Origin: Synechococcus sp. CB0101
GTDB taxonomy: Bacteria; Cyanobacteriota; Cyanobacteriia; PCC-6307; Cyanobiaceae
Length of the DNA: 64,000 nt
Reading direction: 5' to 3'
Assembly (NCBI RefSeq): GCF_000179235.2
Contig: NZ_CP039373.1
Coordinates: 1,147,860 to 1,211,859, forward strand
Shown: in pieces, positions 4,815 through 19,837 of the stretch
Numbering within the stretch: the first letter of the stretch is position 1
How the letters are laid out: the number at the start of each line of letters is the position of its first letter
Translations under genes and position numbers: made by a program
The notes under the pieces: model-generated
Databases searched by the model: none
Told to the model about the DNA's origin: nothing
The model's input: the letters and a program-made list of their open reading frames with translations, nothing else

Positions 4815-5462
4815 TCAAAAGAAGAGCGGCAACTGCTGCGGCCCCTCTTCCCGATCAGCGCGCCGCGGCGGCTCCGCCACCCAGCCAGACGGATCCCAAC
4901 CACCCAGCAAAGGCTCGAGCACCCGCAGGCCCGGACCATCTCTGGCCTCCAACCAGGCCTGCTCCAAGCCGTTGGGAAGAATCACCGGCATCCGGTTGTG
5001 CAGCGGTGCCACCAACGCATTGGGAGCAGTGGTGAGCACACAACAGCTCTCCACTTCGCTGCCATCAGGGCCGATCCAGCGATCCCAGATTCCGGCCAGC
5101 CAGAAGAGATCGCCATCGCGGCGCTGGATGCGATGGCCCTTCTCGAAAAAGGCATCGGCCGGCAGCAGACAGCGTCGATGGCGCCAGGCGCCGCGGAAGC
5201 TGGCCTTCTCCGCCACCGTTTCGGCCCTGGCGTTGAAGGGGCGAGGGCCCGCCAGGGGGTCCTTGCTCCACTCCGGCAGCAACCCCCACAGCATCAGGGC
5301 GGGCTGCAGCTGCCCATGTTCCTGCCGCAGCGCCAACACCGGCTCGCCAGGGGCGATCAGCGGCCTCGGGGCGTAGTAGTCCTGCAGCCCAAGCGGCAGC
5401 TGACCCTGCAAACGCGGCAGCAGCTGATCCAGGCGAGCGGTGAGGGAATAACGACCACACAC
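4815..5462 (-). CDS. SRAP domain protein (HMCES/YedK-like abasic-site crosslinking protein)
   Basis: A 215-residue SOS-response-associated peptidase family protein. The family needs Cys at position 2, exposed by removal of Met, to form a thiazolidine link to abasic sites in single-stranded DNA. The GTG at 5462 gives exactly MCGRYSL, so it was chosen over a start 13 codons upstream. Other conserved residues are the Asn of FNARAET, the Glu of FFEKG (usually YEW) and the His of PLHNRMPVIL. It shields abasic sites at replication forks. It lies upstream of, and divergent from, ftsH. Confidence 0.9.
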   Translation of the reverse strand: MCGRYSLTARLDQLLPRLQGQLPLGLQDYYAPRPLIAPGEPVLALRQEHGQLQPALMLWGLLPEWSKDPLAGPRPFNARAETVAEKASFRGAWRHRRCLLPADAFFEKGHRIQRRDGDLFWLAGIWDRWIGPDGSEVESCCVLTTAPNALVAPLHNRMPVILPNGLEQAWLEARDGPGLRVLEPLLGGWDPSGWVAEPPRRADREEGPQQLPLFF

Positions 5463-5547
5463 AGCGCGAACAGCTCCCGTTCGGTTCTCACCCACCATCA
5501 AGCCCGTGGGTGGCCCCTAGTTTGGTGGCCATTACGGCAAGCTGCGC

Positions 5548-7428
5548 ATGCCTATCCGCAAGGACGACACGCCCCCGAATCGGCGGTTCGGCATCGTCAA
5601 CCTGGTGCTGATCGGATTCGGAGTGCTGCTGCTGGTGAGCAGCTTCCTGCCCAACCAGGGCATGCAACAGGTGCCTCGAGTTCCCTACTCACTGTTTGTG
5701 AGTCAGGTGGATGACGGCAATGTTCGCCGCGCCTACATCACCCAAGAGCAGATCCGCTACGAGCTGAAGGAGGCGCCAGAAGATGGAGCCCCCTCGGTGC
5801 TGGCCACGACGCCGATCTTCGACATGGATCTGCCGAAGCGGCTCGAGGAGCATGGCGTGGAATTTGCCGCGGCACCGCCCCAGAAGCCCAGCTTCATCAC
5901 GACGGCCCTGAGCTGGATCGTGCCGCCGCTGATCTTCATCCTGGTGCTTCAGTTCTTCGCTCGCCGCTCGATGGGCGGCGCCCAGGGTGCACTGAGCTTC
6001 ACCAAGAGCAAAGCCAAGGTGTATGTGCCCGATGAGGAATCTCGGGTCACCTTCGCTGATGTGGCGGGTGTGGATGAGGCCAAGCAAGAGCTCACTGAGA
6101 TCGTTGACTTCCTCAAAACACCCGAGCGCTACACTGCGATCGGCGCCCGCATTCCCAAGGGTGTTCTGCTCGTCGGTCCTCCTGGAACGGGTAAAACCCT
6201 CCTGTCCAAAGCCGTGGCTGGTGAAGCTGGCGTTCCCTTCTTCATCATCAGCGGCTCTGAATTTGTGGAACTGTTCGTAGGCGCCGGTGCTGCCCGCGTA
6301 CGCGATCTGTTTGAAGAGGCCAAAAAGAAAGCGCCTTGCATCATCTTCATCGACGAACTTGATGCCATCGGCAAGAGCCGTGCCGGCTCGATGGGCGTGG
6401 TCGGTGGCAACGACGAACGGGAGCAGACCCTCAACCAGCTGCTCACCGAAATGGACGGCTTTGCCGCCAAAGACAAGCCGGTGATTGTGCTGGCCGCCAC
6501 CAACCAACCCGAAACCCTCGACGCCGCCCTGCTGCGCCCGGGTCGTTTCGACCGCCAGGTGTTGGTGGATCGCCCTGACCTCTCAGGCCGCAAAACGATC
6601 CTCGACATCTATGCCCGCAAGGTGAAGCTCGCCCCAGGAGTTGATCTCGACAAGCTGGCTCAGGCCACCAGCGGTTTTTCCGGCGCCGACCTGGCCAACC
6701 TGGTGAATGAGGCCGCACTGCTGGCCGCCCGCGCCAAGCGCACCTCGGTGGAGCAGGGCGATCTCAACGAAGCGATCGAACGAGTGGTGGCTGGCCTTGA
6801 GAAGAAGAGCCGCGTGCTCCAGCCGGATGAGAAGAAGGTGGTGGCCTATCACGAGGTGGGCCACGCGATCGTGGGTCACCTGATGCCAGGCGGCAGCAAG
6901 GTGGCCAAGATCTCGATCGTGCCCCGCGGCATGGCGGCCCTGGGATACACCCTTCAGCTCCCCACCGAAGAGCGCTTCCTCAATTCCAAGGAAGACCTGG
7001 AAGGCCAGATCGCCACCCTGCTGGGCGGCCGCAGCGCAGAAGAAATCGTGTTCGGCGCCGTCACCACCGGCGCCGCTAACGACCTGCAGCGCGCCACCGA
7101 CATTGCCGAGCAGATGGTGGGCACCTATGGCATGAGCGACGTGCTCGGCCCCCTCGCCTACGACAAGCAGGGCGGCAGCCGCTTCCTCGGCGGCGGCAAC
7201 AACCCCCGCCGCGTGGTGAGCGATGCCACCGCCCAGGCGATCGACAAGGAGGTGCGCACCCTGGTGGATCGCGCCCACGACCGGGCCCTCTCGATCCTTC
7301 ACCACAACCGCGATCTGCTCGAGAGCATCTCCCAGCAGATCCTCGAGAAGGAAGTGATCGAAGGCGACGACCTCAAGAACCTCCTCGCCAGCAGCGTGAT
7401 GCCCGAGGAGGCCGTGGCGATTGCCTGA
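5548..7428 (+). CDS. ftsH: ATP-dependent zinc metalloprotease FtsH
   Basis: A 626-residue membrane AAA protease. Two transmembrane segments (about 12-35 and 118-140) flank the lumen/periplasm-facing FtsH-ext domain. The AAA domain has Walker A GPPGTGKT (210-217) and Walker [10 protein letters not shown], followed by the second region of homology. The zinc site HEVGH starts at residue 435. In cyanobacteria FtsH hexamers remove photodamaged D1 and other membrane proteins; which of the several paralogues this is cannot be told by eye. A large hairpin terminator follows at 7471. Confidence 0.97.
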
Positions 7429-7470
7429 TCAGCCCTAACTCACGGCTGGTCGAACACCATCACGCCATCA

Positions 7471-7517
7471 GCGTCCAGAGCCGGATATCCACGGATATCC
7501 CGTTCTGGGCGCTTTTT
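7471..7517 (+). terminator. Hairpin terminator after ftsH
   Basis: GCGTCCAGA pairs with TCTGGGCGC (9 bp, one G-U) and is followed by TTTTT. The loop contains two tandem copies of the palindrome GGATATCC, which could fold further. The hairpin lies about 40 bases past the ftsH stop and about 75 before argF. Confidence 0.6.
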
Positions 7518-7592
7518 GATGTGCCATCACAGGGTCAGGCCCTTGACGAAGGGGCCCCTCATCCCGGATAAGGGTTCTTTGAAGAAGGGCCG

Positions 7593-8543
7593 ATGGCTGC
7601 CAACAGCGGCTACCCCGCCTTAGCGGAGCTGAAAGGGCGCGACTTTCTCTCCTCCACCGACGCCAGCGCCGAGCAGACGGCCGCACTGCTGCAGCTCGCC
7701 GCTGACCTCAAAGCCGGCCGCACCCAGATCGACCTCTCGGGCCGCAGCCTGGGCCTGATCTTCAGCAAGGCATCCACCCGCACCCGGGTGAGCTTCACGG
7801 TGGCGATGGCCCGCCTGGGCGGACAAACCATTGATCTCAACCCCCAGGTGAGTCAGGTGGGGCGGGGTGAACCCGTGGCTGACACCGCAAGGGTGCTGAG
7901 CCGTTACGTGGATGCCCTCGCGATTCGCACCTTCGCCCAGGAGGAGCTGGCGGAGTACGCCCATTGGGCCTCCATTCCGGTGATCAATGCCCTCACCGAT
8001 CTGGAGCATCCCTGTCAGGCACTGGCCGATTTCCTCACCCTGCAGGAAGCCTTCGGCGACCTGCAGGGGCTGACCCTCTCGTATGTGGGCGATGGCAACA
8101 ACGTTGCCCACTCCCTGATGCTCTGTGGCGCCCTGCTGGGTGTGAACGTTCGGGTCGGCTGCCCCAAGGGCTACGAGCCCGACGCAGCGGTGTTGGAGCA
8201 GGCGCAGCAGCTGGCTGGCGACCGCTGCGCCATCGAGGTGCTGCATGAGCCCGTGGCAGCGGTGCGGCACGCCCACGCGCTCTACACCGATGTGTGGGCA
8301 TCGATGGGGCAAGAAGAGGAGAAAACAGAACGCGAGCAGGCCTTCGCCGGCTGGTGCCTCAACGAAGACCTGGTGGCTGAAGCCGACCCGCGCGCGATCG
8401 TGCTGCACTGCCTGCCCGCTTACCGGGGCCTGGAGATCAGCGCCGGTGCCATGGAAGGCAGCAACAGCCGCATCTTCGACCAAGCCGAAAACCGCCTGCA
8501 TGCCCAGCAGGCTCTGCTGGCAGCACTGCTGGGCGGCACCTGA
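7593..8543 (+). CDS. argF: Ornithine carbamoyltransferase
   Basis: A 316-residue enzyme that makes citrulline from ornithine and carbamoyl phosphate in arginine synthesis. Signatures are STRTR (residues 61-65, carbamoyl phosphate binding), HPCQALADFLTL, and HCLPAYRG (from about residue 272, ornithine side). Length is normal for the family. It stands alone, separated from ftsH by a terminator. Start ATG at 7593. Confidence 0.97.
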   Translation: MAANSGYPALAELKGRDFLSSTDASAEQTAALLQLAADLKAGRTQIDLSGRSLGLIFSKASTRTRVSFTVAMARLGGQTIDLNPQVSQVGRGEPVADTARVLSRYVDALAIRTFAQEELAEYAHWASIPVINALTDLEHPCQALADFLTLQEAFGDLQGLTLSYVGDGNNVAHSLMLCGALLGVNVRVGCPKGYEPDAAVLEQAQQLAGDRCAIEVLHEPVAAVRHAHALYTDVWASMGQEEEKTEREQAFAGWCLNEDLVAEADPRAIVLHCLPAYRGLEISAGAMEGSNSRIFDQAENRLHAQQALLAALLGGT

Positions 8544-8611
8544 GCAGGTGCCCAAAGCAACCAAAGGAGCCGCACCCTCTCCCTAGCGTTGGGGGGACGG
8601 CTCATCCGCTT

Positions 8612-9826
8612 GTGTTCCGAAGGCCCAAGCTGAAGCCCCTGGTTGCCACCGTGCTGTGTGCCTGGCTGGCGCCATGGAACCCGCCAGCGTTCGGACAAGA
8701 AGAACTGCGCGGTGTCTGGCTGACAGCCAATGACATGCCTGTGCTCCGCGATCGAGAGCGCATGCAGGCCACGGTGAATCAGTTGGCCGATTTGCACTTC
8801 AACCGGCTCTACGTGGTGGTGTGGAACGGCGGCATGGCCTACTACCCCAGCCAACTGAGTGAGAGCCGCGGCTTTCAGAGCTTCACCTACCGCGGCCTCC
8901 AGGGCCAGGATGTGATCGGTGAACTCATCAGTGCAGGTCGTAACCGTGGGCTCACGGTTCTGCCCTGGTTTGAATTCGGCTTCATGGCGCCTCCTGATTC
9001 AGAGGTGGCCAAACAACACCGAAGCTGGCTCACCCAGAGACGCGATGGCAGCCTCACTTCGATCAGCGCCGCTGGCGAGGTGGTGTGGCTGAACCCCTTC
9101 CGGCCTGAAGTGCAGCAACTGATCACCGATCTCGTACTCGAGGTGGTGAACCAATACGGGGCTGAGGGCATCCAATTCGATGACCACATGAGCCTGCCGC
9201 GTGACTTCGGATATGACGCCTACACCGTGGAGCTGTACCGAAAGGAAACAGGAAAGGCACCACCAGCCAATGCGGATGATCCCGCTTGGGTGCAGTGGCG
9301 GGCTCAACGCCTCACCAGCTTCATGCAACGCCTCAGCCAGGCAATCCGAGCAGCCAGGCCCGGCGCGATCGTCTCCATCTCACCGAACTACTACGACTTT
9401 GCCTACAAGCTCCAACTGCAGGATTGGCGCCGTTGGGTGCAAACCGGCTTCGCTGATGAACTGCTCATTCAGATCTACCGACCCGATCTAGCCAGTTATC
9501 TGCCCCAACTGAGCAAGCCAGAGGTGCTGGAAGCCCGCGATCGAATCCCTACGGCCATTGCGGTGCTGAGTGGCCAACGCAACCGCCCCACCCCACTGCC
9601 TCTGATCCAAGAGAAGGTGGATGCCAACCGTCAGCAAGGACTCGGCACCGGCTTCTTCTACCTGGAGAGCCTCTGGAGCCTTGGCCCCGAACAACCAAGC
9701 GAACGCATCCGAGGGCTTCAGCAACTGCTTCCGCCACAAAACACACCGATGCCCGCCCTACAACCAGCGGCCCGCCCAGCCTTGCCACCGCTGCCACCGC
9801 CACCGCTCGAACCCATCACCCCATGA
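8612..9826 (+). CDS. Exported GHL10-type glycoside hydrolase-like protein
   Basis: A 404-residue protein with a signal peptide (cleavage near AFGQ, about residue 27). The mature part starts with LRGVWLTANDMPVL and matches the glycosyl-hydrolase-like 10 family (formerly DUF187), a TIM-barrel group found widely in cyanobacteria. WNGGMAYYPSQ and EGIQFDDHMS are typical barrel-strand segments with acidic residues. The C-terminus is a proline-rich tail. It probably acts on a cell-envelope or extracellular polysaccharide; the substrate is unknown. Start GTG at 8612. Confidence 0.83.
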   Translation: MFRRPKLKPLVATVLCAWLAPWNPPAFGQEELRGVWLTANDMPVLRDRERMQATVNQLADLHFNRLYVVVWNGGMAYYPSQLSESRGFQSFTYRGLQGQDVIGELISAGRNRGLTVLPWFEFGFMAPPDSEVAKQHRSWLTQRRDGSLTSISAAGEVVWLNPFRPEVQQLITDLVLEVVNQYGAEGIQFDDHMSLPRDFGYDAYTVELYRKETGKAPPANADDPAWVQWRAQRLTSFMQRLSQAIRAARPGAIVSISPNYYDFAYKLQLQDWRRWVQTGFADELLIQIYRPDLASYLPQLSKPEVLEARDRIPTAIAVLSGQRNRPTPLPLIQEKVDANRQQGLGTGFFYLESLWSLGPEQPSERIRGLQQLLPPQNTPMPALQPAARPALPPLPPPPLEPITP

Positions 9827-10617: not shown

Positions 10618-10690
10618 GGGGCCATAGCTCAGCTGGTAGAGCACCTGCATGGCATGCAGGGGGTCAGCGGTTCGAATCCGCTTGGCTCCA
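10618..10690 (+). tRNA. tRNA-Ala (anticodon GGC)
   Basis: A 73-base cloverleaf: acceptor GGGGCCA/TGGCTCC (one G-U), D arm GCTCAGCTGGTAGAGC, anticodon stem CCTGC/GCAGG around loop ATGGCAT (anticodon GGC), T stem AGCGG/CCGCT around TTCGAAT, discriminator A. CCA is not encoded. This gene is the integration site of the element to its right. Its 3' half from the anticodon stem onward appears to come from the element, because a different but equally foldable 3' half (T stem AGGAG/CTCCT) lies at 19128-19173. Confidence 0.96.
10645..10667 (+). repeat. attL core, left copy of 23-bp direct repeat
   Basis: The 23 bases starting CTGCATGGC and ending GGTCAG are identical to 19128-19150. They lie in the anticodon arm of the intact tRNA. 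The stem halves CCTGC and GCAGG around the 7-base loop ATGGCAT have the form of tyrosine-recombinase core sites flanking a 7-bp overlap. Confidence 0.85.
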
Positions 10691-10698
10691 TTGAGATT

Positions 10699-10722
10699 AC
10701 CCAGTCACTGACTGGGTTTTTT
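10699..10722 (+). terminator. Terminator after tRNA-Ala, element-derived
   Basis: ACCCAGTC-ACT-GACTGGGT is a perfect 8-bp hairpin followed by five T. It lies just inside the element and replaces the host's own terminator, which is now at 19181-19205. Confidence 0.75.
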
Positions 10723-10783
10723 GGTATCTGGCGCACCCTACGCAGAGGGTCAGATGCACCCTGGGGCACCCAGATATGCCTGT

Positions 10784-10802
10784 TTGGTGCCCGATTTGGT
10801 GC
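10784..10802 (+). repeat. Left arm-type repeat, TTGGTGCCCGATTTGGTGC
   Basis: An exact 19-bp direct repeat of 19046-19064, about 120 bp inside the left end. It contains two TTGGTGC units 11 bp apart; a further partial copy (TTGGTGCCCG) lies at 10863-10872 just before the integrase start. Repeats inside both ends of a tyrosine-recombinase element are usually arm-binding sites for the integrase N-terminal domain. Confidence 0.65.
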
Positions 10803-10879
10803 CATGCTTTCACCAGCGCAAACCCGCTCCACGACTGGGGTGGGTGGTGCTTCCTTGCCCGCTTGGTGCCCGTTTAGTC

Positions 10880-12172
10880 ATGGCAGCCCGTCAGCAGTGG
10901 TTTGAAACCCTCCGCGTGAGCATCGCCCAAGAGCACGGCAAGGGCTGGATCGTGCGGGAGAAAGGGGCCACCAGCCGCAAACCGATCGGGCGCTGCCAAC
11001 TGATACGCATTTGGGAGGACCGGACCCGCAGCAGCGTGATGCTGCCCATGGAGTGGAAGGCCACCAACGCCACCGCGATCCTCACCACCGTGGGCCAGGT
11101 CCGCAACCTGATGGAGGAGCGCCACCTCAGCCTGCAGGACGCGCTCAGGCTCAACACCGAACTGCTTAGTGGCAACCAAGAGCAAGCAGGCGAGGAATTT
11201 GCCGGCTGGCCTGAGGTAGCAGCCCGGTTCCTCAAGGCGCAGGAGGGTCGGCGCAGCAGCACCCTGCGTGACATCACCACCAGGGTGGAGCGCACGCTGG
11301 AGGCGCTACGCAGCAGGCCATGCCCACGCGATGGCGGCACCTTGATGCGGCGCTATGCAGAGAAGTTCTTCGAGGGCTGCCCAGCAGGTGGCACGGGCCG
11401 CAAACGCAACCTGCTGGACGTGGCCCGGTTCCTCGCCTATGCGGTGGATGAGTGCGGTGCACCCACGCGGTTCTACCCACCAAGCAAAACCAAGATCAAT
11501 GAGCTGATCGGCTCAGCGGAAACCACCGCAGCCGAAAAGCTCACCCCACCGATCAAGCCAGAGGATCTGGCAGCCCTGCTGGATCAGCTAGATGCCGATA
11601 GTGAGCACGAGCTGCGGCTGGCGGTAGGGCTGGTGGGTCTCTATGGCCTGCGGCCTGCTGAGCTGGCGGTGCTCACCGTGAAGGAGGGCAAAGCGTATGT
11701 GGGCCACGTCAAGCGCAACAGCACCTCCATGGGCGCCAAGGCCAAGCCACCCCGGCTGGTGAAGGCAATCGACATCGCAGGCCGTGATGGCGAAGGAGAA
11801 CGCCTCATTCAGCTCTATGCCAGCGGACGGGTGAAGCTGCCCAAATCGCTGCGCAATCAGATCGCCAAGGTGGAGGAGAAAGGCCGCTTCCAAGATGTAG
11901 GCGCCGACTTCGCCCAAAAGCTGGAGCGCTATGCCCCATGGCGGGCGCTGGTGGCCCGCTGCCCAGGGCTCACCCCCTACTCATTGCGGCATGGGTATGC
12001 GTGGAGGGCCCATTGCTGCAGCACCAATGCCATGCACCCACGCATTACAGCGGCCCTGATGGGGCACAACGTTGCCACCCACCTCAAGCACTACGGCAGC
12101 TGGACTGATGAGGCTTCGCTGGAAGCTGCAGTGGAGCGATACAACGCTGGGGTGCACCCAGTTGGGGCATGA
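10880..12172 (+). CDS. Tyrosine recombinase (integrase)
   Basis: A 430-residue integrase directly beside attL in tRNA-Ala. The catalytic domain shows Arg I at R258 (GLRPAEL), the second box YSLRHGY (Y367, R370, H371), H396 in MGHN and nucleophile Y405 (LKHYGSW). The first His of the usual HxxR box is Tyr here. The N-terminal half is probably the arm-binding and core-binding region. ATG at 10880 was chosen; the frame stays open to 10721, but that stretch holds the terminator-proximal and arm-repeat DNA. It should catalyse integration at the tRNA and, with a directionality factor, excision. Confidence 0.9.
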   Translation: MAARQQWFETLRVSIAQEHGKGWIVREKGATSRKPIGRCQLIRIWEDRTRSSVMLPMEWKATNATAILTTVGQVRNLMEERHLSLQDALRLNTELLSGNQEQAGEEFAGWPEVAARFLKAQEGRRSSTLRDITTRVERTLEALRSRPCPRDGGTLMRRYAEKFFEGCPAGGTGRKRNLLDVARFLAYAVDECGAPTRFYPPSKTKINELIGSAETTAAEKLTPPIKPEDLAALLDQLDADSEHELRLAVGLVGLYGLRPAELAVLTVKEGKAYVGHVKRNSTSMGAKAKPPRLVKAIDIAGRDGEGERLIQLYASGRVKLPKSLRNQIAKVEEKGRFQDVGADFAQKLERYAPWRALVARCPGLTPYSLRHGYAWRAHCCSTNAMHPRITAALMGHNVATHLKHYGSWTDEASLEAAVERYNAGVHPVGA

Positions 12173-12332
12173 GTTCTCATTCGCGACCGTGCACCGCTAC
12201 TGTCAAAACATAAGAACTGCGGATCTGAACTGTCCGTGGGAACCACACCAAAGCCGCAATGAACGCGAGGGAGCTGGCTGCCCCCTCAGGCTCTGGTGAT
12301 CTGCGAAGCCGGTTCCCTCGCATACGTTCCCC

Positions 12333-12548
12333 ATGGGCAACCAGGCCCCTACGGCAGGCGCATCTGAGCCGGCCCTGTTCAAGCGCCTACAGCGCAAGCT
12401 CAATCCTCAAGGCCAGCAGCTGCACCGCTGCCGCCAAGACTCTCGCGACATAGCGACGCTGGGTCGCTACTACGTCACCGAGCCCGCGATCAACGCGGTG
12501 GTGGCCACCCACATTCACCTGGCCGACTGGCTGGCGGAGGTGGCGTGA
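12333..12548 (+). CDS. Small island protein, unknown function
   Basis: A 71-residue basic protein with no family I recognise. The C-terminal half (YYVTEPAINAVVATHIHLADWLAEVA) looks like one or two helices and has coding-like composition. Its stop overlaps the next gene's ATG (TGATG), which supports expression as a pair. The 160 bp before it, after the integrase stop, hold no gene I can support. Another frame overlaps here (12259-12453) but has poorer composition. Confidence 0.5.
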   Translation: MGNQAPTAGASEPALFKRLQRKLNPQGQQLHRCRQDSRDIATLGRYYVTEPAINAVVATHIHLADWLAEVA

Positions 12549-12796
12549 TGAGCACTCCTCAGCAGTGGCTACGCACCCCTATGGCTGCCATGGCCTTGGG
12601 CTGCAGCCAGAACCATCTCAAGCGCTGCCGAGATAGCCACGGCGGGTTCCTGGTGCATGGTGAGCACTACATCAACGGCACTAGTCACAGCGCCCCGATC
12701 GTCTGGAACGTGGATGCGGTGCGGACCGCTTTCACGTATCACGGCATGCTCCGCCAACGCGGTGAAGCAGCTCTCAAGCAAGCGGTGGGAGCATAA
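12548..12796 (+). CDS. Small DNA-binding-like protein, candidate excisionase
   Basis: An 82-residue protein. The start MSTPQQWLRTPMAAMALGCS followed by NHLKRCRDSHGGFLVHGEHY resembles the small winged-helix fold of phage Xis/AlpA and MerR-like proteins, where a short helix-turn-helix is followed by a hairpin wing. It sits between the integrase and the replication genes, the usual place for an excisionase. ATG at 12548 was chosen over a GTG one codon upstream because it overlaps the previous stop. Family assignment is by pattern only. Confidence 0.55.
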   Translation: MSTPQQWLRTPMAAMALGCSQNHLKRCRDSHGGFLVHGEHYINGTSHSAPIVWNVDAVRTAFTYHGMLRQRGEAALKQAVGA

Positions 12797-12798
12797 AA

Positions 12799-13821
12799 AT
12801 GGCCCCCACAAATCGCGGGAGCCTTGGGCATGGCGATGTTCTAAGGCTATCTGACCCCCTACTGCATCTGCAGAAGGTCAGAACCAGCAAAACCATTGCC
12901 CCAGCTGAGCAGCAGCTCCAGCCCACTGGCAAGCATGCACCAGATTCGACACCATGGCGCCACCAGCTGCCACGGCTTGCCCATCTGGAGCAGGATCTGG
13001 CCCTGTTGCCGGTTGGCTGGGGCCCCGATCGCAAGGGGCCGATGCTGGAGGGCTGGCAGCATCACCTCGGCTACACCGTGGCACAGCTGCAGGCTTACCG
13101 CAGCATGCGCTCAGTGGGTGCCCGCACCGGGCTGCTCACCGGCCCGCTGCTGTGCTTTGACTTTGACGGCGCCACCTCCCTGGAGCTGGGTCTGGATCAC
13201 TTAATTGATCCGGGCTGGGCCTGCACCTGGCAAGTCCACCGCGACACCGACGCCAACCGGCTGAAGGTGTTGTTCCGGCCCACGATGGAGCAGCTCCAGC
13301 AGCTGCCCGATGGCGCTGAGTTTCAGGGCAAGACCATCACGGCACCCAAAACCGACACCAGCAAGGGCGAGGCCCTGGAGGTGTTCTTTGATGGCGGGCG
13401 CCAGGTGATCGTGCTGGGTGAGCACCCCAGCAGCGGCGGCCACTACTTCTGGCCCGATGGCATGGGCCCTGAGGCGCTGGCAGCCCCACCGGCTCATTGG
13501 TGGGAGCATGCGCTGAGGATCGCTGCAGACTGCCAGCAGCGGCTCACTACCGGCAGCAAACCCAGCTCACGGCGCCATGGCACCAAGCGGCTGGACCTCT
13601 GCCCGATCTGCGGGCGGCACGGGTCGCTCTGGTGTGAGCAGACCCAGGAGGGGCTGATCCTGTGCATGCCCGGCTCCACCTTCAGCGCTGAGCAGCGCCA
13701 TGGGCCGCTGAGCATCGGGCAGGTGGTGGATGGCTGGGCGCTGGTGAAGCGCACCCCTATCGGTGAAGGCGATGTGCTCACCTTCAAGCTGCACCGGCCC
13801 AGGGGGTGCAGCAATGGCTGA
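12799..13821 (+). CDS. Prim-pol type primase-polymerase (AEP fold)
   Basis: A 340-residue protein of the bifunctional primase/polymerase group. It shows the metal-binding pair D121-F-D123 in LLCFDFDGA, a middle box WQVHRDTDANRLKVLFR, and the third box EVFFDGGRQVIVLGEHPSSG (E194 onward) that ends GGHYFW as in the family. Four cysteines (C268, C271, C279, C289) form a likely zinc finger after the catalytic domain. It should make primers and begin replication of the excised element. It overlaps the next gene by 8 bases, so primase and ATPase are probably made together, like the Pri-Rep proteins of satellites. Confidence 0.82.
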   Translation: MAPTNRGSLGHGDVLRLSDPLLHLQKVRTSKTIAPAEQQLQPTGKHAPDSTPWRHQLPRLAHLEQDLALLPVGWGPDRKGPMLEGWQHHLGYTVAQLQAYRSMRSVGARTGLLTGPLLCFDFDGATSLELGLDHLIDPGWACTWQVHRDTDANRLKVLFRPTMEQLQQLPDGAEFQGKTITAPKTDTSKGEALEVFFDGGRQVIVLGEHPSSGGHYFWPDGMGPEALAAPPAHWWEHALRIAADCQQRLTTGSKPSSRRHGTKRLDLCPICGRHGSLWCEQTQEGLILCMPGSTFSAEQRHGPLSIGQVVDGWALVKRTPIGEGDVLTFKLHRPRGCSNG

Positions 13822-15424
13822 GGCTCCCTTCAAAGTGCTGGGCTGGTGCACTGATCGCAAGGTCATCTACTACCAGCACCGTCAGACCGGGCAGATCGCT
13901 TACATCACACCGTCAGCGCAGGCCACACCTCTCCTAAAGCTGGCGCCTGCTGGCTTTTGGGAGTCGCAGTATCCGGGCCGACTTGGCACCGACTGGGTAA
14001 CTGCTGCTTCCAAGGTGATCGAAAGCGCCAACAAACGGGGGGTGTTTGCCCTGGATCGCGTCCGGGGCCGTGGAGTGTGGATGGATGGCACCCAGGTGGT
14101 TTGGCATCTGGGTGATCGGCTGGAGGTGGATGGCAAGCAGGTTGGCCTGATCGACCATCAGAGCAGTTACCACTACCAACGCCTACCCAGGCTCGACATT
14201 GACCCCGCAACGGCTCCTCTCAGTGATGCCGAGGGCGCTCTGATCCTCCAGGCCGTCAAGGCCATGGGCTGGAGCACCCCAGTCGATCACCTTCACCTAT
14301 TGGGCTGGGTGATGCTGGCAAACGTTGGCGGCGCCCTCGACAAGCGGCCCGTGCTGCAGATCACCTGCGGATTCGGGCAAGGCAAGACCTACACCCTCAC
14401 CGTTGTGATCCAGCCGCTGCTGGCTGGGCTGGCGATCTGCGAAAGCAACAGCTCAGAGGCGGCGATCCGCCAGACCCTCAACACCGACACCCTGCCGGCG
14501 CTGATCGACGAATCAGAGGGCGAGGATCAGCACAAACGCGAGGGGCACCTCAAGCTGGCCCGGCTGAGCTTTGACGGCAGGGCCACCAGCAGGGGCACCA
14601 CCTACGGCAAAGCCCTCACCTATGCGGTGCGCAGCAGCATGGCGCTGGTGGGCATCAATGCGGTGATCGCCGACCCTGCAGGCCGCAGCCGCACGGTGGT
14701 GGTGGGCCGCCAGCAGCTGCCGCAGGAGCAGTGGGGGCCAGTGGATCGCAAACTCCGCGAGCTGGTGACGGTCAAGACCGGCGCCATGCTTGTGCGGCGG
14801 TGCGTCACTCACCTACCCACACTGCAGGCCAACGTGGCCACCTTCCGCAGGGTGGTGGAGGCCCAGCTGCCAGCTGGAGCAGCAGCCCGAGCTGGCGACA
14901 CCTACGGCGCCCTGCTGGCAGGTGCCCACCTCCTGCTAAGCACGGCCCAGGTGGATGAGGCTCAGGCCCTGGACTGGATGGATCGCGTCGGCTGGGATGC
15001 CGCAGCGGCCCTGGGTGTGGATGCAGCCCCTGAGCAATCAGCGGCGGCAGAAGGTGCGCAATGCCTCGCCAAGCTGCTCAGCCATGAGGAGCAATGGCGC
15101 ACTGCAGACCCCGAATACGGCACCGGCAGGATCACTATCCGCGAGCTACTGCAGCTGGCCCGGAGCCCCAGTGGCGCCGACGAGGCTGAGCAGGCCCGCA
15201 CTGCTTTGGGCCGCCGTGGCATCAAAGCCACGGATCACGCTCTGGTGATCGCCAACAACGCTCAGCTACTGGCAGCCATCTACAACAACACCAAATGGCG
15301 CAGCGGTGGCCACGTTGAGCGCCTGCGGGATCTGCCCGGTGCTGATGCTGCTGGGCCGCATCACTTCAAAGCGATGGGCACCCACAAGGCCACCACCGTG
15401 CCATGGGCCGCTGCTGGGTTCTAA
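13814..15424 (+). CDS. DUF927/SF3-like replicative ATPase (Rep helicase candidate)
   Basis: A 536-residue protein. A central ATPase region has the P-loop CGFGQGKT (GKT at 190-192), in which the first Gly of the classical GxxxxGKT is Cys, and a Walker B LPALIDE (D232, E233). The order and spacing resemble DUF927 and D5-type helicases that follow prim-pol domains in phage and satellite replicons. The C-terminal 150 residues are not recognised. An iteron-rich patch starts right at its stop codon, fitting an origin-binding helicase. ATG at 13814 was taken because it overlaps the primase stop. Confidence 0.72.
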   Translation: MAEAPFKVLGWCTDRKVIYYQHRQTGQIAYITPSAQATPLLKLAPAGFWESQYPGRLGTDWVTAASKVIESANKRGVFALDRVRGRGVWMDGTQVVWHLGDRLEVDGKQVGLIDHQSSYHYQRLPRLDIDPATAPLSDAEGALILQAVKAMGWSTPVDHLHLLGWVMLANVGGALDKRPVLQITCGFGQGKTYTLTVVIQPLLAGLAICESNSSEAAIRQTLNTDTLPALIDESEGEDQHKREGHLKLARLSFDGRATSRGTTYGKALTYAVRSSMALVGINAVIADPAGRSRTVVVGRQQLPQEQWGPVDRKLRELVTVKTGAMLVRRCVTHLPTLQANVATFRRVVEAQLPAGAAARAGDTYGALLAGAHLLLSTAQVDEAQALDWMDRVGWDAAAALGVDAAPEQSAAAEGAQCLAKLLSHEEQWRTADPEYGTGRITIRELLQLARSPSGADEAEQARTALGRRGIKATDHALVIANNAQLLAAIYNNTKWRSGGHVERLRDLPGADAAGPHHFKAMGTHKATTVPWAAAGF

Positions 15425-15640
15425 CGGTTGAAACAGGCAGCGTTAGGCGAAAACCTAGCGCTGCCGGGCTTTCTATCGATCTAACGGTCTAACCCCGGAT
15501 CACCAACACACCCCTATTAAGGGGCACCCTCTCTACTACTTACTACTTTTACAGTTAGAAGGGTTAGAAGGTTAGAAAGCCAGTAGCAGCAAGCGATCTC
15601 CCCTAACCCAGCTGCCGGGCCAGCCGTTAGACCGTTAGAA
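15421..15640. other. Candidate replication origin with GTTAGA iterons
   Basis: This non-coding stretch contains repeated GTTAGA units: GTTAGAA at 15554, 15563 and 15571, GTTAGAC at 15626 and GTTAGAA at 15634. In inverse orientation CTAACGG lies at 15421 and TCTAACGGTCTAAC at 15480-15493, an exact inverted copy of 15626-15639. A 12-bp hairpin with one G-U (15436-15465), a 5-bp hairpin (15511-15524) and a TACT-rich run (about 15533-15550) lie between. Iterons beside a rep gene and a low-GC run are typical of origins. From 15641 to 15741 I see nothing further. Confidence 0.55.
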
Positions 15641-15741
15641 CCTCTGCCTACTCAGCAGCAGGTCAAGCAGCCCAGGAGCATTGCCCTGCTTGGGCTGCCA
15701 TACAACTCAACAGGCCAGCAGGCACCAAAGCAGGCACCAGT

Positions 15742-16026
15742 TCAGTGCTGGGCCCACCGCATGATCAGCTCTTCCAGGTCACCCGCTGCTGGTCCAGTTG
15801 GGCGCTGCTCCCAGCGATCACCGCAGCTGATCACCCAATCAATCCAGAAGCTTGACCATCGTTCACGTTGCCGGCGGGTGACGCCTTTTGACGTTGGCAT
15901 CGGCGCAAATGCCTCGATCACTTCCAACACAACCTCAGGCGGCGCGTCATCCAACAGCGCCGCACACTGCGCTGCCTGCTGCTCCAACGCGATGAGCTGC
16001 TCCGCCAACTGATAGCTCAGCTCCAC
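15742..16026 (-). CDS. Island protein, unknown function, last gene of terS operon
   Basis: A 94-residue protein with a helical N-terminus (ELSYQLAEQLIALEQQAAQC) and a Trp-rich second half (WSSFWIDWVISCGDRWEQRP). No family is recognised. The GTG start overlaps the terS stop by about 10 bases, so it is the last cistron of the minus-strand operon. Its end faces the candidate origin. It could be a morphogenesis or packaging-interference factor, as in other satellites, but nothing in the sequence shows this. Confidence 0.6.
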   Translation of the reverse strand: MELSYQLAEQLIALEQQAAQCAALLDDAPPEVVLEVIEAFAPMPTSKGVTRRQRERWSSFWIDWVISCGDRWEQRPTGPAAGDLEELIMRWAQH

Positions 16027-16394
16027 GTTCCGCTCCTCCCGAATCGGCCCATCTGCGTTCCTGGTCGTGATGGCGCGTGGTCAGCACCCAAACCCACCAG
16101 TGCTCGCAGTTCGCGGCTGATACCAACGACAGCGCCGGAGTTCTTGGCCTTCATGGCCTGTTCAGCTGATGCCATCAGCATGTGGATCAACTGCGCTGTC
16201 AGATGGGTGCGCTCTACATGGTCCAGGTCCTGCACCAAGGTCTGATGCGCCTTTGATGTGATGCGCTGGGCCTGGCGCCTACTGATCCCCCACTTCTCCG
16301 CCATTTCAGACACCACAGCGGAACTGCCACGTCCAGCCATCAACTGCTGCAGTGCCCAGTTAATACGTTCCTTGGCGGCAACTGGGCTAGCCAT
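16017..16394 (-). CDS. Terminase small subunit-like protein (TerS)
   Basis: A 125-residue protein with an N-terminal helix-turn-helix (about residues 27-50, VSEMAEKWGISRRQAQRIT), then a long helical region and the segment GISRELRALVGLGADH. This order, HTH followed by an oligomerisation helix and a short tail, is that of phage small terminases, which recognise the packaging site. There is no large terminase in the element, which is the hallmark of satellites that redirect a helper's packaging motor. The ATG overlaps the preceding stop (TGATG). A plain HTH regulator is the main alternative. Confidence 0.65.
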   Translation of the reverse strand: MASPVAAKERINWALQQLMAGRGSSAVVSEMAEKWGISRRQAQRITSKAHQTLVQDLDHVERTHLTAQLIHMLMASAEQAMKAKNSGAVVGISRELRALVGLGADHAPSRPGTQMGRFGRSGTWS

Positions 16395-16543
16395 CAGCTC
16401 AGCAGCCCTTCACTGCGCAATGCTTCCAACAGGCGCTGGCGTTGTACGGGCTGGAGATCTACCTGCAGCAATGCACGCAAGATGCCAACCTCGCGCTTTT
16501 TCTGGCGGTCAAGGTCTGCCAATGCGTCATCAATGATTGTCAT
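16394..16543 (-). CDS. 49-residue island protein between overlapping operon genes
   Basis: A short frame starting MTIIDDALADLDRQKKREVG and ending in LRSEGLLS, almost entirely helix-forming and charged. Its ATG overlaps the upstream stop (ATGA) and its stop overlaps the terS ATG (TGATG), so it exactly fills the gap in the operon. This tiling is the main evidence that it is real. Function unknown; its size suggests an adaptor or regulator peptide. Confidence 0.65.
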   Translation of the reverse strand: MTIIDDALADLDRQKKREVGILRALLQVDLQPVQRQRLLEALRSEGLLS

Positions 16544-16878
16544 CCCATCGCCTCCTGGAGCTGATGCACTTGAGCTTCGATGGCATCCAGACGTTCCAAT
16601 AGGTCACCAGCGCGGGTGTTGATCTGTTGGTGGAGCTCGTCCCCTTGATACTGCAGCTCGGTTAGATGTTCTTCAGCTTGGCGGCGCACATCAGGACGTT
16701 GAATCAAGCGGGGTAGTTCTTCCTGCCAAAACCAAGCAACAGCAGCAGGTGGCAGCCCGCTTGCCATTGGGTCATCGGATTGATCTCTGAATGCCAGCAC
16801 TTTGTCCAGTGCCTTGCGTTGCTCGTGCGGCGGCAACAGCAACCAATTAGCGATTGGATGCTTCCTGGCGATACTCAT
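16540..16878 (-). CDS. Coiled-coil island protein, unknown function
   Basis: A 112-residue protein. The N-terminal half is Pro/Trp containing (PIANWLLLPPHEQRKALDKV) and the C-terminal 40 residues form a clear coiled coil with heptad Leu/Ile (LLERLDAIEAQVHQLQEAM). No family is recognised. Start and stop overlap both neighbours by 4 bases. Coiled-coil proteins in this position of satellites can be scaffold or capsid-size factors, but that is only an analogy. Confidence 0.65.
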   Translation of the reverse strand: MSIARKHPIANWLLLPPHEQRKALDKVLAFRDQSDDPMASGLPPAAVAWFWQEELPRLIQRPDVRRQAEEHLTELQYQGDELHQQINTRAGDLLERLDAIEAQVHQLQEAMG

Positions 16879-17273
16879 TGCCCATACCTCCGGCCAGTGA
16901 TTGCATTACGGCCCTGCAGGTTCATCTGTTCGCGGTAACGCGCTGATGCAGTGTTCACCTGCCGCAGGCGGTCGGTTTGCATCGCTAGGGCCTGCGCTTG
17001 CATTTCACGTGCTGCGCGTTCTTCAGCCTCGCGGCGTTGCAGATCAGAACCACAACCCAGATACGCCGCCAGTGCCGGATCACGGCGCTGCAACAGGCTT
17101 TTGAGCGTCAGATTCTGTGCAATAGCCCCGCCAGATACAGGACGGCCATAGGGGCGTGTTGGGGGCACACCACCAGCCTTCACAATGCGGGCTTCAATCT
17201 GCCGTGCTTCCTGCTCAATACGCTCTGCAGCGCTATGGGCAGCATCAATCTGCTGGTCGATTGGGAGGTTCAT
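16875..17273 (-). CDS. Helical island protein, unknown function
   Basis: A 132-residue protein: N-terminal helix rich in Glu and Ala (AAHSAAERIEQEARQIEARI), a Pro/Gly-rich middle (GGVPPTRPYGRPVSGG), then a long Arg/Glu/Gln helix (EERAAREMQAQALAMQTDRL) and a basic tail (GRNAITGRRYGQ). It resembles small phage structural or scaffold proteins in composition only. Its ATG overlaps the upstream stop (TGATG) and its stop overlaps the next ATG (ATGA). Confidence 0.65.
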   Translation of the reverse strand: MNLPIDQQIDAAHSAAERIEQEARQIEARIVKAGGVPPTRPYGRPVSGGAIAQNLTLKSLLQRRDPALAAYLGCGSDLQRREAEERAAREMQAQALAMQTDRLRQVNTASARYREQMNLQGRNAITGRRYGQ

Positions 17274-17455
17274 CAGTGCACCTCCACGGGCAGTACACGG
17301 CGGGACTGAGCAGATGCCATCGGATCACCATCTGGCGCGTGCGGAGTGTCGTCGTCAGCGCTGAACCGCGCCATTGCACGTTCAAGCCTCGCTTGCTCCT
17401 GCAATTCCTGCAAAGCTAGCGTTCCCAGCAGGCTCAATCGGCCTCGTCTTGTCAT
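17273..17455 (-). CDS. First gene of island minus-strand operon, unknown function
   Basis: A 60-residue protein, basic at the N-terminus (MTRRGRLSLLGTLALQEL) and acidic in the middle (FSADDDTPHAPDGDP). It opens the six-gene operon that runs to 15742. A strong ribosome-binding site (GAGGGGG, 7 bases before the ATG) supports this start. A TAGACT hexamer about 30 bases upstream on the minus strand could be the -10 of the operon promoter. No family is recognised. Confidence 0.6.
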   Translation of the reverse strand: MTRRGRLSLLGTLALQELQEQARLERAMARFSADDDTPHAPDGDPMASAQSRRVLPVEVH

Positions 17456-17643
17456 TGCAAACCCCCTCAGGATTGCTGTGATCCAGTCTAGGGGTGTTGC
17501 AGTGGTGATTCTCGCAGAATTGCACGCGGCGGGCTATAGTGCTGCTGTCAGCAGTTGAGCCTGAGTTGCTCCTGCCGCCACAGTCTTTCTACTGAGCCAC
17601 AGGAGCCGCGCAGGTCGCTGCTGGTGTTCTTCGCCACCGTCCT

Positions 17644-17811
17644 ATGGGATCCGTTGCTGACGCGCTTGCGGCTCGCTTAGCCGCCCTTCAACGTCAATCT
17701 GAGATCACTGATCAAAAGGTTGCTGCCACCATCGCCCGCTGCCATCAGCTCATCGCTGAAGAACAGGCAGCAGAAGCGAGATGGGCAGCAGAGAATCCCG
17801 ATCTGCTGTGA
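17644..17811 (+). CDS. 55-residue helical island protein
   Basis: A short frame MGSVADALAARLAALQRQSE ending in RWAAENPDLL, predicted to be one long amphipathic helix or coiled coil. It lies divergent to the terS operon and is followed at once by a strong hairpin terminator, which is the main support. A TATAGT hexamer at 17535-17540 could be its -10 box. No good ribosome-binding site is visible before the ATG, so confidence is modest. Function unknown. Confidence 0.5.
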   Translation: MGSVADALAARLAALQRQSEITDQKVAATIARCHQLIAEEQAAEARWAAENPDLL

Positions 17812-17817
17812 AGACAG

Positions 17818-17842
17818 GCCCCGGTTATCGCCGGGGCTTTTT
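17818..17842 (+). terminator. Hairpin terminator in island
   Basis: GCCCCGG-TTATCG-CCGGGGC followed by TTTTT, seven bases after the stop of the 55-residue gene. The same hairpin overlaps the 3' end of the convergent 59-residue gene. Confidence 0.75.
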
Positions 17843-18004
17843 GCTGTCTTGCTCTAGGCAGCGCTCTAGGTACTGGTGGGTGGGCAGCAGGTTCACGCCG
17901 GCCACCTCTGGGCGCTTGCTGAGCAGCCACAGCAAAAGCCTTGTGCGGCGGGATAGCCCGTGAGGATTAGCCATAGGGGTAGGCGCCACCAGGGGCAGCG
18001 CCAT
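17825..18004 (-). CDS. 59-residue island protein downstream of RHH repressor
   Basis: A small basic protein; the core GLSRRTRLLLWLLSKRPEVA suggests an amphipathic or membrane-touching helix, and the C-terminus is Lys/Arg rich (QDSKKPRR). ATG at 18004 is preceded by AGGAG at eight bases, a good ribosome-binding site, and was preferred over a GTG three codons upstream and an ATG at 17974. It follows the RHH gene by 15 bases in the same direction. No family is recognised. Confidence 0.5.
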   Translation of the reverse strand: MALPLVAPTPMANPHGLSRRTRLLLWLLSKRPEVAGVNLLPTHQYLERCLEQDSKKPRR

Positions 18005-18019
18005 GCTCTTCACTCCTAC

Positions 18020-18214
18020 CTAGCTAGACGTTGACACCTCCAACAAGTGCGCGATCAGATTTGAAAGGCTCCGGCCTTCTTGGTCTGCACGTTGCTGCAG
18101 CGTGTGGTGAAGCTGCCAGCAGGCGGTGAAGGTGATCCGCTGGGGGCGCCGGCGCAGCAGATCAACAGGTCGCACAGGAGCGACAGCCCCATAGGGCTGT
18201 GAGAATGAAGACAT
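18020..18214 (-). CDS. Ribbon-helix-helix DNA-binding protein, likely island repressor
   Basis: A 64-residue protein. Residues from RRRPQRITFTACWQL onward give a beta strand with alternating polar residues, then a helix (HHTLQQRADQEG), a turn and a second helix (SLSNLIAHLLEV): the ribbon-helix-helix fold of CopG/Arc-like regulators. It is the only clear regulator in the right part of the element, and paired operator-like repeats lie 430 bp upstream between divergent genes. ATG at 18214 was chosen; a GTG at 18226 would add four residues. Confidence 0.75.
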   Translation of the reverse strand: MSSFSQPYGAVAPVRPVDLLRRRPQRITFTACWQLHHTLQQRADQEGRSLSNLIAHLLEVSTSS

Positions 18215-18344
18215 CAGTTCGATCACGAGTTGGACTGGTCACGAGGTCGGCTGTTTGCGCAGCGCGGCCTCACCTCCAAACTTAGACCGCATGCTGCGGC
18301 GCCTTTGCAGCATGCGTTGCAGTTCTGCAGCACCAACGCTGTGA

Positions 18345-18479
18345 CTACCGGTCAGCCCTTGGACCAGGCACCTGCCCGTTAGCGGGCTTGATCGTCACAG
18401 CACGCTGCGCTGCCCTGTAGGCGCGATCAAAGCACTGATCCGCTAGCTGCTCCCAATGCCTGCGGGAAGCATCATCCAT
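18345..18479 (-). CDS. 44-residue island protein
   Basis: A short frame MDDASRRHWEQLADQCFDRA that ends GQVPGPRADR. It starts inside the end of the 52-residue membrane protein gene (8-base overlap), suggesting coupled translation. The N-terminal half looks helical and charged. No family is recognised. From 18227 to 18344 only a 24-codon frame (MLQRRRSMRSKF...) is visible, too short to claim. Confidence 0.4.
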   Translation of the reverse strand: MDDASRRHWEQLADQCFDRAYRAAQRAVTIKPANGQVPGPRADR

Positions 18480-18630
18480 GTCTCATCACGGTTAGAGCGG
18501 AAGTCGCTGGCTTCGCCTGCTGGCCTTGCCTATACGCCAGCCCCAGGCTCGTCAGGATCACAATCACGACCAGGCTTACCAGAAGCTGGTAGACCGTAAA
18601 GCCTGCTGCTGCAGTTGGTCTGATTGGCAT
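18472..18630 (-). CDS. 52-residue membrane protein with prepilin-like N-terminus
   Basis: The frame starts MPIRPTAAAG and continues FTVYQLLVSLVVIVIL, then a short basic tail (YRQGQQAK). AAAG|FTVYQLLV closely resembles the class III signal of type IV pseudopilins (G|FTLIELLV), except that the key Glu at +5 is Gln and the protein stops after one hydrophobic helix. It could be a truncated pilin-like peptide or simply a single-pass membrane protein. It is the first gene leftward from the operator-bearing divergent promoter region. Confidence 0.55.
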   Translation of the reverse strand: MPIRPTAAAGFTVYQLLVSLVVIVILTSLGLAYRQGQQAKPATSALTVMRHG

Positions 18631-18648
18631 GGGTATAGCCGGCTGCTG

Positions 18649-18701
18649 CTATGCAACTAGTACAAAGGCTATAAGTCAATGCCTATGCAGTTAGTGCATA
18701 G
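18649..18701. promoter_or_regulatory. Two 19-bp operator-like repeats between divergent genes
   Basis: CTATGCA-GTTAG-TGCATAG at 18683-18701 is a perfect 7-bp inverted repeat. CTATGCA-ACTAG-TACAAAG at 18649-18667 matches it at 15 of 19 positions, 34 bp away. Between them lie TATAAG (plus-strand -10-like, 18670-18675) and TTGACT (minus-strand -35-like, 18679-18674). A dimeric repressor bound here would control both directions; the RHH protein is the obvious candidate. Confidence 0.55.
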
Positions 18702-18866
18702 AACCAAATCTTCTCTCGGGTGTTTACTCCTGGTGCGTTGTTGGTCGTTATTGCTACTGCCCTGTCGACCCTGTGTTGCCGCTTGGTTGCCGCCGTGGCC
18801 ACCCGTGGTGCAGCAGATGCCGGATTTCGGTGGGGTGGCTACCAGCAGTGCAGAGGCTCCTGCGTC

Positions 18867-19034
18867 ATGACCCGCCACACCCTGATCATCGAAGGGCCAG
18901 AGGGGTCGATGACCACGCTGGAGCTGTTTGTCGACGATCCCGCTGAGGTCTGGCGCATCGGGCACGAGCTGTTCCCTGGGCGCCGGCTAGCTGCGGTCTG
19001 CCACCAAGACGAGGACGAAGACAAGGAGGAGTGA
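18867..19034 (+). CDS. 55-residue acidic island protein
   Basis: A short protein starting MTRHTLIIEGPEGSMTTLEL with a strongly acidic C-terminus (CHQDEDEDKEE). AGAGG ten bases before the ATG is a plausible ribosome-binding site. The same frame is open back to a GTG at 18720, which would add a hydrophobic N-terminus (MFTPGALLVVIATALSTLCC), so a longer membrane-anchored form is possible. A second frame (18679-18870) overlaps the ATG as ATGA. It is the only plus-strand gene supported near the right end. Confidence 0.5.
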   Translation: MTRHTLIIEGPEGSMTTLELFVDDPAEVWRIGHELFPGRRLAAVCHQDEDEDKEE

Positions 19035-19045
19035 GCTCAAATCTC

Positions 19046-19064
19046 TTGGTGCCCGATTTGGTGC
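19046..19064 (+). repeat. Right arm-type repeat, TTGGTGCCCGATTTGGTGC
   Basis: An exact copy, in the same orientation, of 10784-10802, 64 bp inside the right core repeat. Together with the left copy it marks both ends of the element as probable integrase arm-binding sites. Confidence 0.65.
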
Positions 19065-19091
19065 ACAACAAGATGAAACAAAATCCTCAAA

Positions 19092-19136
19092 GCCATGCAG
19101 CGCAGGGGCTCTGAGCCATGCAGCCTGCTGCATGGC
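19092..19136. repeat. Core-like direct and inverted repeats beside attR
   Basis: GCCATGCAGC occurs at 19092-19101 and 19115-19124, and its exact inverse GCTGCATGGC lies at 19127-19136, overlapping the core repeat. The last two form a perfect 10-bp palindrome with a 2-base spacer. Extra core-like half-sites next to attR could bind integrase or Xis. Confidence 0.5.
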
Positions 19137-19173
19137 ATGCAGGGGGTCAGGAGTTCGAGTCTCCTTGGCTCCA
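19128..19173 (+). repeat. attR core with displaced tRNA-Ala 3' half
   Basis: The first 23 bases are identical to the core in tRNA-Ala. The rest forms a proper T arm (AGGAG-TTCGAGT-CTCCT) and acceptor strand (TGGCTCC, then A). No matching 5' half lies before it, so it is not a gene by itself. It is best read as the original 3' half of the host tRNA, pushed 8.5 kb away by integration, with its own terminator still behind it. Confidence 0.85.
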
Positions 19174-19180
19174 TTGTGAG

Positions 19181-19205
19181 AACCCGGGTTTACCCGGGTT
19201 TTTTT
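19181..19205 (+). terminator. Original tRNA-Ala terminator, displaced
   Basis: AACCCGGG-TTTA-CCCGGGTT followed by a T run, eight bases after the displaced tRNA 3' half. It occupies the same relative place as the hairpin at 10699-10722 behind the intact tRNA. Confidence 0.75.
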
Positions 19206-19691: not shown

Positions 19692-19837
19692 CAAAACGTG
19701 ACCCAGGAAACAGAACCTCGGTACACCACGAACACTTTTGCACCGGTAGCCGTTGCTACACTTTTAAAACGTTCATCCCCTTGTGGGACGCACGCCTTGG
19801 CAGCAGGGAACGGGGCTGCCAGCTTGAGGCAACCGCC

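Follow-up and report, generated by a model that had tools for sequence, protein, structure and literature searches.

A putative phage-satellite-like island integrated in tRNA-Ala(GGC) of Synechococcus sp. CB0101, with related islands in other genera

The genome of Synechococcus sp. CB0101 (2.79 Mb, one contig, NZ_CP039373.1) was analysed in a window of 64,000 nucleotides (positions 1,147,860 to 1,211,859 of the forward strand), and all coordinates given here are those of this whole stretch. A tRNA-Ala(GGC) gene at 10618-10690 is followed by 8.5 kb of DNA that is closed by a second copy of the 3' half of the same tRNA. The element thus delimited, an integrated island at 10645-19150, is the subject of this study. 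The two tRNA copies form a repeat pair (10645-10702 and 19128-19185, 86% identity) around a core of 23 bp, which is the same in both copies and starts at the anticodon stem-loop and ends at the variable loop.

10618-10690, plus strand: tRNA-Ala(GGC), with a probably island-borne 3' part past the core and a T-arm of the CGG type
10645-10667, plus strand: left attachment core, 23 bp, identical in both copies
19128-19150, plus strand: right attachment core, identical to the left core
19128-19173, plus strand: probable former 3' end of the host's own tRNA-Ala, now separated from it, with a T-arm of the GAG type (from comparison of the copies)

Uninterrupted tRNA-Ala sites were found in two genomes, G150 and G200, of a 25-genome sample of the same genus (sampled genomes carry G numbers and loci L numbers in the following). 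When the flanks of the island are joined, their alignment with G150 spans the junction (1903 columns, 87.2%), as does that with G200 (2564 columns, 81.6%), and the left part of the tRNA together with the right copy matches the G150 tRNA exactly. Thus, the island is an insertion, and its boundaries are proven by the uninterrupted sites. A first-pass annotation of the window had placed an island with these very ends in tRNA-Ala(GGC), naming their absence from collinear genomes as grounds for rejection; the repeat pair and the two uninterrupted sites bear it out. Past the core, the T-arm differs between the copies. Pairing is possible in both forms, the present tRNA having AGCGG...CCGCT and the right copy AGGAG...CTCCT. 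Therefore, the island apparently brought a new tRNA 3' end. In the simplest reading, the original 3' end was displaced rightward and the present tRNA would carry an island-borne one. The uninterrupted tRNA has a T-arm of the GAG type in G150 and of the CGG type in G200. Among related islands in tRNA-Ala with both copies readable, two different T-arms occur in L158 and L159 and not in L147, L148, and L109. Such paired copies suggest that islands of this kind replace tRNA 3' ends between species.

The left part of the island encodes functions for integration and replication, and candidate binding sites of the integrase lie near both ends.

10783-10802, plus strand: repeat near the left end, reading TTTGGTGC-N4-TTTGGTGC, possible arm sites of the integrase
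10880-12172, plus strand: tyrosine integrase, 430 aa (PHROG integrase match, 1.1e-7)
12545-12796, plus strand: Xis-like protein, 83 aa, named from size and position
12799-13821, plus strand: primase-polymerase-like protein (phrog_1156, PHROG primase, 2.5e-9)
13763-15424, plus strand: helicase-type ATPase of the phage primase kind (phrog_35358, PHROG primase, 1.3e-72)
15420-15639, no strand: iteron patch, candidate origin, 8 GTTAGA copies
19045-19064, plus strand: its counterpart near the right end, reading CTTGGTGC-N4-TTTGGTGC

The integrase had been annotated earlier with a start near 10721, but the ATG at 10880, which yields 430 aa, is more probable. No match to the Pfam integrase model was obtained. 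Read by eye, the alignment contains the expected active-site residues R, K, R, H, and Y, and a Y replaces the first H of box II. The Xis candidate of 83 aa has no profile match; it is 68% identical to the proteins of the islands in G193 and G265, and its family occurs in 12 of 25 clustered loci (the window's included), mostly adjoining an integrase or primase gene. An open reading frame (ORF) of 71 aa at 12333-12548 shows no conservation, an equally good score being reached by 20 and 148 of 300 shuffles, and was not counted as a gene.

The spaced 20-nt pattern NTTGGTGC-N4-TTTGGTGC has two copies in the 64 kb, one near each island end, and a further TTGGTGC lies at 10863, near the left end repeat. 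In the G193 and G265 islands, TTTGGCGC stands at the places of this repeat. Judged from these patterns, the end repeats are perhaps integrase arm sites, and the two ends would have changed together. As a control, a simple octamer count was compared with random pairs of 330-bp stretches. The count was exceptional in L145, L147, L148, L161, L154, and L100 (0-1 controls equally high), weaker in L144 (6/585 controls equally high), L146 (19/569), L109 (29/540), and the window's island (38/588), and unremarkable in L158 (249/574). Several islands have their own repeats at both ends, and so, probably, does the window's; for the latter, the control being mixed, the case is drawn from the spaced 20-nt pattern and the parallel change in L147 and L148.

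The ATPase likely starts at ATG 13814 and resembles phage primases; one of them, from Synechococcus phage S-H1, matches at 36% with 62% of the query covered. Eight of the ten GTTAGA motifs in the 64-kb window fall in 15420-15639. These iterons are not common to the relatives: among 13 related stretches checked, 12 had none and L092 had one. Primase-helicase-like proteins of about 900 aa (e.g., L006-L029) form a large family with up to three copies per genome and a match in 34 of 400 genomes sampled from the host family (the island's own counted). In the related island L100, a DNA topoisomerase gene adjoins the primase gene (6143-7021; phrog_6247, 8.7e-62).

The island further contains an operon of six small genes, referred to here as the late operon, that is read leftward with successive overlaps of 1-10 nt.

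17273-17455, minus strand: m60, first gene, with a C-terminal motif around SxQSRR common to most relatives
16875-17273, minus strand: m132, conserved protein with predicted long helices
16540-16878, minus strand: m112, protein conserved in relatives
16394-16543, minus strand: m49, weakly like a gene of about 65 aa in the same position in relatives
16017-16394, minus strand: TerS-like helix-turn-helix (HTH) protein, 125 aa, with HTH-type similarity
15742-16026, minus strand: m94, last gene, conserved in L094 and L107

The integrase, Xis-like, primase-polymerase, and ATPase genes are read rightward, which gives the island a convergent layout. Neither PHROGs, searched with alignments of m132 and m112, nor the PDB sequences, searched with m132, yielded a name, and the late proteins also stayed without one when ten ORFs of the window were compared with NCBIfam. 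The structure model of m132 (two-row alignment; pLDDT 75.8, pTM 0.38) had no BFVD match at E<=0.001 and at best a Z of 2.0 in a second look at the PDB, although absence from the match lists of this and the TerS-like model excludes nothing. Thus far the earlier gene list held up in part: the named genes exist as ORFs, the iteron patch is real, and the late genes overlap, and the integrase, primase-polymerase, and ATPase match PHROGs in the profile search that had been suggested as a check; for the TerS-like protein no TerS match was obtained and its identity is not established. In L145, L149, L150, L153, L154, and L161, a variable gene lies between m112 and the TerS-like gene, at what looks like a cargo slot; it encodes an Mrr-type nuclease in L150, a methyltransferase in L149, and a phage-type endonuclease in L145, the others being unnamed or weakly matched.

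No profile match to capsid, portal, or large terminase was found in ten island ORFs of the window (a PHROG scan that left out m49 and, of the small ORFs in the right part, covered 18720-19034 only), nor in 42 ORFs from 12 islands. The latter, 42 of 66 listed, include three from the window, two of which are already among the ten; the ORFs of L109 were left out and two of them scanned separately. The claim that the island lacks these three kinds of gene therefore stands for all ORFs scanned, among which neither the hallmark genes of a prophage nor a complete virion gene set was seen. Because the island has its own genes for movement and copying and these matches are missing, it is satellite-like by content, and, as expected of a phage satellite, it is integrated in the chromosome, encodes an integrase of its own, and has exact ends.

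Relatives of the TerS-like gene occur in 149 of the 400 family genomes (own genome counted), and therefore islands of this sort may be common. The 29 TerS-like loci besides the window's (1.8-3.4 kb each) contain a tRNA or tmRNA gene in 11 cases (Pro-TGG 6, Arg-TCT 2, tmRNA 2, Ala-GGC 1). The m132 gene is rarer, with 26 of the 400 family genomes (own genome and a few weak matches counted) in 8 of 59 genera, and it is patchy within the genus, where it was found in one of 25 sampled genomes. Of 339 genomes drawn over the phylum, 6 carried it, and each of these belongs to the host family; the tally is silent on how many of the 339 lie outside that family. Around 18 m132 matches, m112 was present in 16 regions, the TerS-like gene in 15, and a long integrase in 11; the regions without a TerS-like gene are L152 (at a contig end), L160 (on a short contig), and L162 (decayed). 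A tRNA or tmRNA gene lies in 14 of these regions (Ala-GGC 7, Pro-TGG 3, Arg-TCT 2, tmRNA 2). The search of other genomes that the first-pass annotation had proposed thus did recover related islands, seven of them beside the same tRNA. Thirteen islands with both ends visible, a set selected for carrying late genes and including the window's, measure 4.7-16.3 kb, and 12 of them are shorter than 9.1 kb.

The modules of these islands differ in their nearest relatives. The window's integrase shares 81% identity over 430 aa with its counterpart in the G193 tRNA-Ala island, in another genus, and 80% with the one in G265. For the same two islands, the primase-polymerase shows 45% over only 73 aa and m132 44-45%, and their TerS-like proteins are not among the seven best matches to the window's. 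The latter is closest to the copy in L092, near tmRNA (65%), and m132 is closest to L107, near tRNA-Pro (56%), and L146, near tmRNA (47%). In a tree of 17 integrases, four of them without a known target, the target labels require 6 changes, whereas shuffled labels require 10.6 on average and none of 200 shuffles gave so low a number, and the tmRNA rows form one clade. These comparisons indicate that related islands with exchanged modules exist in other genera, and that integrases tend to follow the target gene, the late and replication genes having other nearest relatives. In G115, L108 and L109 are apparently two islands in tandem in one tRNA-Ala; one of them has 16 kb and genes for a homoserine O-succinyltransferase and a Cys/Met PLP enzyme. 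In L095 (G075, 48-9223), a six-gene block adjoining tmRNA is present twice in tandem.

The HTH protein deserves a closer look, as a packaging role of the island would depend on it. Its structure model (two-row alignment; pLDDT 74.8, pTM 0.46) is helical and of HTH type, and the G20c small terminase heads its list of structural matches (Z 7.5, rmsd 2.6, 54 residues), tied with an unrelated protein. One of the 42 island ORFs matches phrog_57 (terminase small subunit) at 1.9e-4, but rescans of 20 of the 42 did not show which one. In the protein family of the window's gene, phrog_34910 (8 of 20 members, best 9.4e-8) has no known function, the Pfam homeodomain-like model matches 4 of 20 members, and comparison with PDB sequences yielded no name. 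On this basis the gene product would be an HTH protein whose identity as TerS is not established. In phage-inducible chromosomal islands (PICIs), the packaging factor is essential and the capsid module optional. The wide occurrence of the TerS-like gene, also in islands without m60-m112 (L100, L109), would suit such an arrangement.

The best explanation of the island is, in our view, an integrative phage-satellite-like element, to which we assign a probability of about 0.65; the packaging step is something we infer from gene content. In this model, Int would bind the end repeats and, with Xis, excise the island, which the primase-polymerase and the helicase would copy from the GTTAGA iterons. 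Upon infection by a tailed cyanophage, the HTH protein would act as a small terminase that steers the large terminase of the phage to island DNA, and m60, m132, m112, m49, and m94 would adapt or redirect particle assembly. By way of these particles the island would reach further hosts and insert itself again in the same tRNA.

Several results weigh against this model. In the PHROG profile search no TerS family matches the window's protein; among 20 members of its family, one has a TerS match, with an E of 0.12, and families of the HTH or regulator type do equally well or better. The unrelated Nab2 tied with the G20c small terminase at Z 6.6. Foldseek found no PDB or BFVD match to the model at E<=0.001, no TerS row among viral proteins is better than E 0.28, and the candidate TerS of a cyanophage does not match the profile. 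A tblastn search of phage records returned nothing for the window's TerS-like protein, m132, and three other TerS-like variants. Five scans of viral contigs with late genes found no relative, and a further scan, which used the ATPase, yielded a single contig, the retrieved part of which has no late gene; these scans need exact short peptide patterns, which relatives can escape. No helper phage is known, and a Terminase_6N gene was not found in the host genome, which speaks only against a resident helper of that type. Finally, the Ala rows do not form one clade on the integrase tree (3 changes; 39 of 500 shuffles as low).

Some of these observations would also fit a self-excising genomic island that is no satellite, maintained and copied by Int, Xis, and the replication proteins and spread by transformation, vesicles, or generalised transduction, with a regulatory or defensive late operon that includes the HTH protein. 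The regulator-type HTH models, which fit that protein at least as well as TerS models do, the five fruitless scans for viral contigs with late genes, and the nucleases in the same operon region of L150 and L145 point in this direction. Against it stand the conserved overlapping late operon beside a phage-type primase and integrase, the compact size (4.7-9.0 kb) of 12 of the 13 two-ended islands (a set chosen for late genes), and the TerS-like gene of L100 and L109, islands without m60-m112; we regard it as the strongest competitor, yet as rather unlikely. The helper-dependent step might instead be replication or gene control, the HTH protein being a late activator that senses phage infection. 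Of 20 family members, 6 have a match to the late transcriptional activators of phrog_836 (best E 0.0063), and the window's protein has a sigma-factor-type match at E 0.0035, far below the cut-off, but the gene lies near the end of the late operon, its product has no second domain, and the HTH matches are unspecific. This is improbable in our judgement. Least plausible is a temperate prophage in decay, its virion genes gone and int, rep, and TerS retained. The phage-type primase and integrase would agree with such an origin, whereas the same compact layout recurs in many genomes and at four target genes with no recognised virion gene, and the tblastn search revealed no phage record with m132 or any of the four TerS-like variants.

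Among known satellites, PICIs of Gram-positive bacteria and proteobacteria have an int-xis-primase/rep-ori block, a terS that redirects packaging, an stl/alpA master regulator, and a one-directional gene order. The island resembles them in int, xis, primase/helicase, ori, the candidate terS, its size, and in that no virion genes were found. It also contains the int-xis-primase/rep-ori block, with xis recognised by within-family similarity and the origin as an iteron patch only. However, its late block is transcribed against the replication block, unlike the one-directional order of PICIs, a point on which the layout int, xis, pri-rep, ori, terS put forward in the first-pass annotation needs correcting. 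No scanned island ORF matched an stl/alpA-type regulator; a CopG-like ribbon-helix-helix gene is present. The earlier label "PICI-like" thus survives in that the element is integrated, probably mobile, PICI-like in its gene content, and exact at its ends, with relatives in other genera of the family. Membership among PICIs is not supported, as TerS is unproven, no PICI-type regulator was recognised, the blocks are convergent, and neither a helper nor virions are known.

The island most likely groups with the tRNA-integrated satellites of picocyanobacteria that have been named tycheposons, elements reportedly described from Prochlorococcus by Hackl et al. in Cell in 2023, some of them being viral satellites. 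Tycheposons share with the island the picocyanobacterial hosts, a tyrosine recombinase, and a tRNA target, and the host group together with the four target genes of the relatives would fit them better than PICIs. The window's island differs from them with its 8.5 kb and no recognised metabolic cargo. That the Pfam integrase model misses its integrase is compatible with the deep-branching recombinase clade reported by Hackl et al., but is no proof of belonging to it. Satellites in picocyanobacteria were proposed earlier as tycheposons (PMC11389934, PMC10803314), and a tRNA-bordered element with a tyrosine recombinase, as found here, is how tycheposons are defined (PMC10872708). The PICMIs of Vibrionaceae (PMC10803314) are likewise small marine satellites with an integrase and a primase, but they sit at fis and have AlpA, whereas the island is inserted in tRNA-Ala and has a six-gene late operon. 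Islands with tyrosine recombinases in Prochlorococcus and Synechococcus, described in PMC10187409, are similar but lie near tRNA-Phe or tRNA-Cys, and a packaged, integrase-bearing element of 11 kbp in Crocosphaera (putatively a phage, plasmid, or PICI; PMC7174320) is a possible marine-cyanobacterial PICI of another host. A literature search met no paper recognisable as being on the window's island, nor the phrase "cyanophage satellite". Relative to the libraries searched, the late module without a convincing match and the convergent layout may be new, though the island may already be among the elements that Hackl et al. described. It is conceivable, if doubtful, that such islands constitute a separate class of cyanophage satellites restricted to picocyanobacteria. 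This class would pair a six-gene packaging or capsid module (m60-m132-m112-m49-TerS-m94), including new capsid- or terminase-hijacking proteins, with an exchangeable replication block and a site-specific integrase, and would swap tRNA T-arm alleles between species. If packaging proves true, the late operon would offer defined genes and a defined attachment site for studying the parasitism of cyanophages by satellites in photosynthetic bacteria that rank among the most abundant.

The remaining features of the island are minor.

10699-10717, plus strand: terminator-like hairpin 3' of the tRNA, inside the island (pattern match only)
17644-17811, plus strand: ORF of 55 aa, possibly not a gene, with a terminator-like hairpin after it (17816-17839)
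18020-18226, minus strand: CopG-like ribbon-helix-helix protein, with a homologue in the G193 island
18472-18630, minus strand: ORF of 52 aa, possibly not a gene, that resembles a pilin N-terminus in a match below the cut-off

No sigma-70 promoter pattern was found, and terminator-like sites (9, against 5.8 with a standard deviation of 2.5 in shuffles) are not in clear excess. A protein of 320 aa with an N-methylation motif (Pfam N_methyl) is encoded in L153 (9199-10161). Just beyond the island, a Glutamine-II riboswitch (Rfam RF01704, 41.4 bits) is located at 19767-19821.

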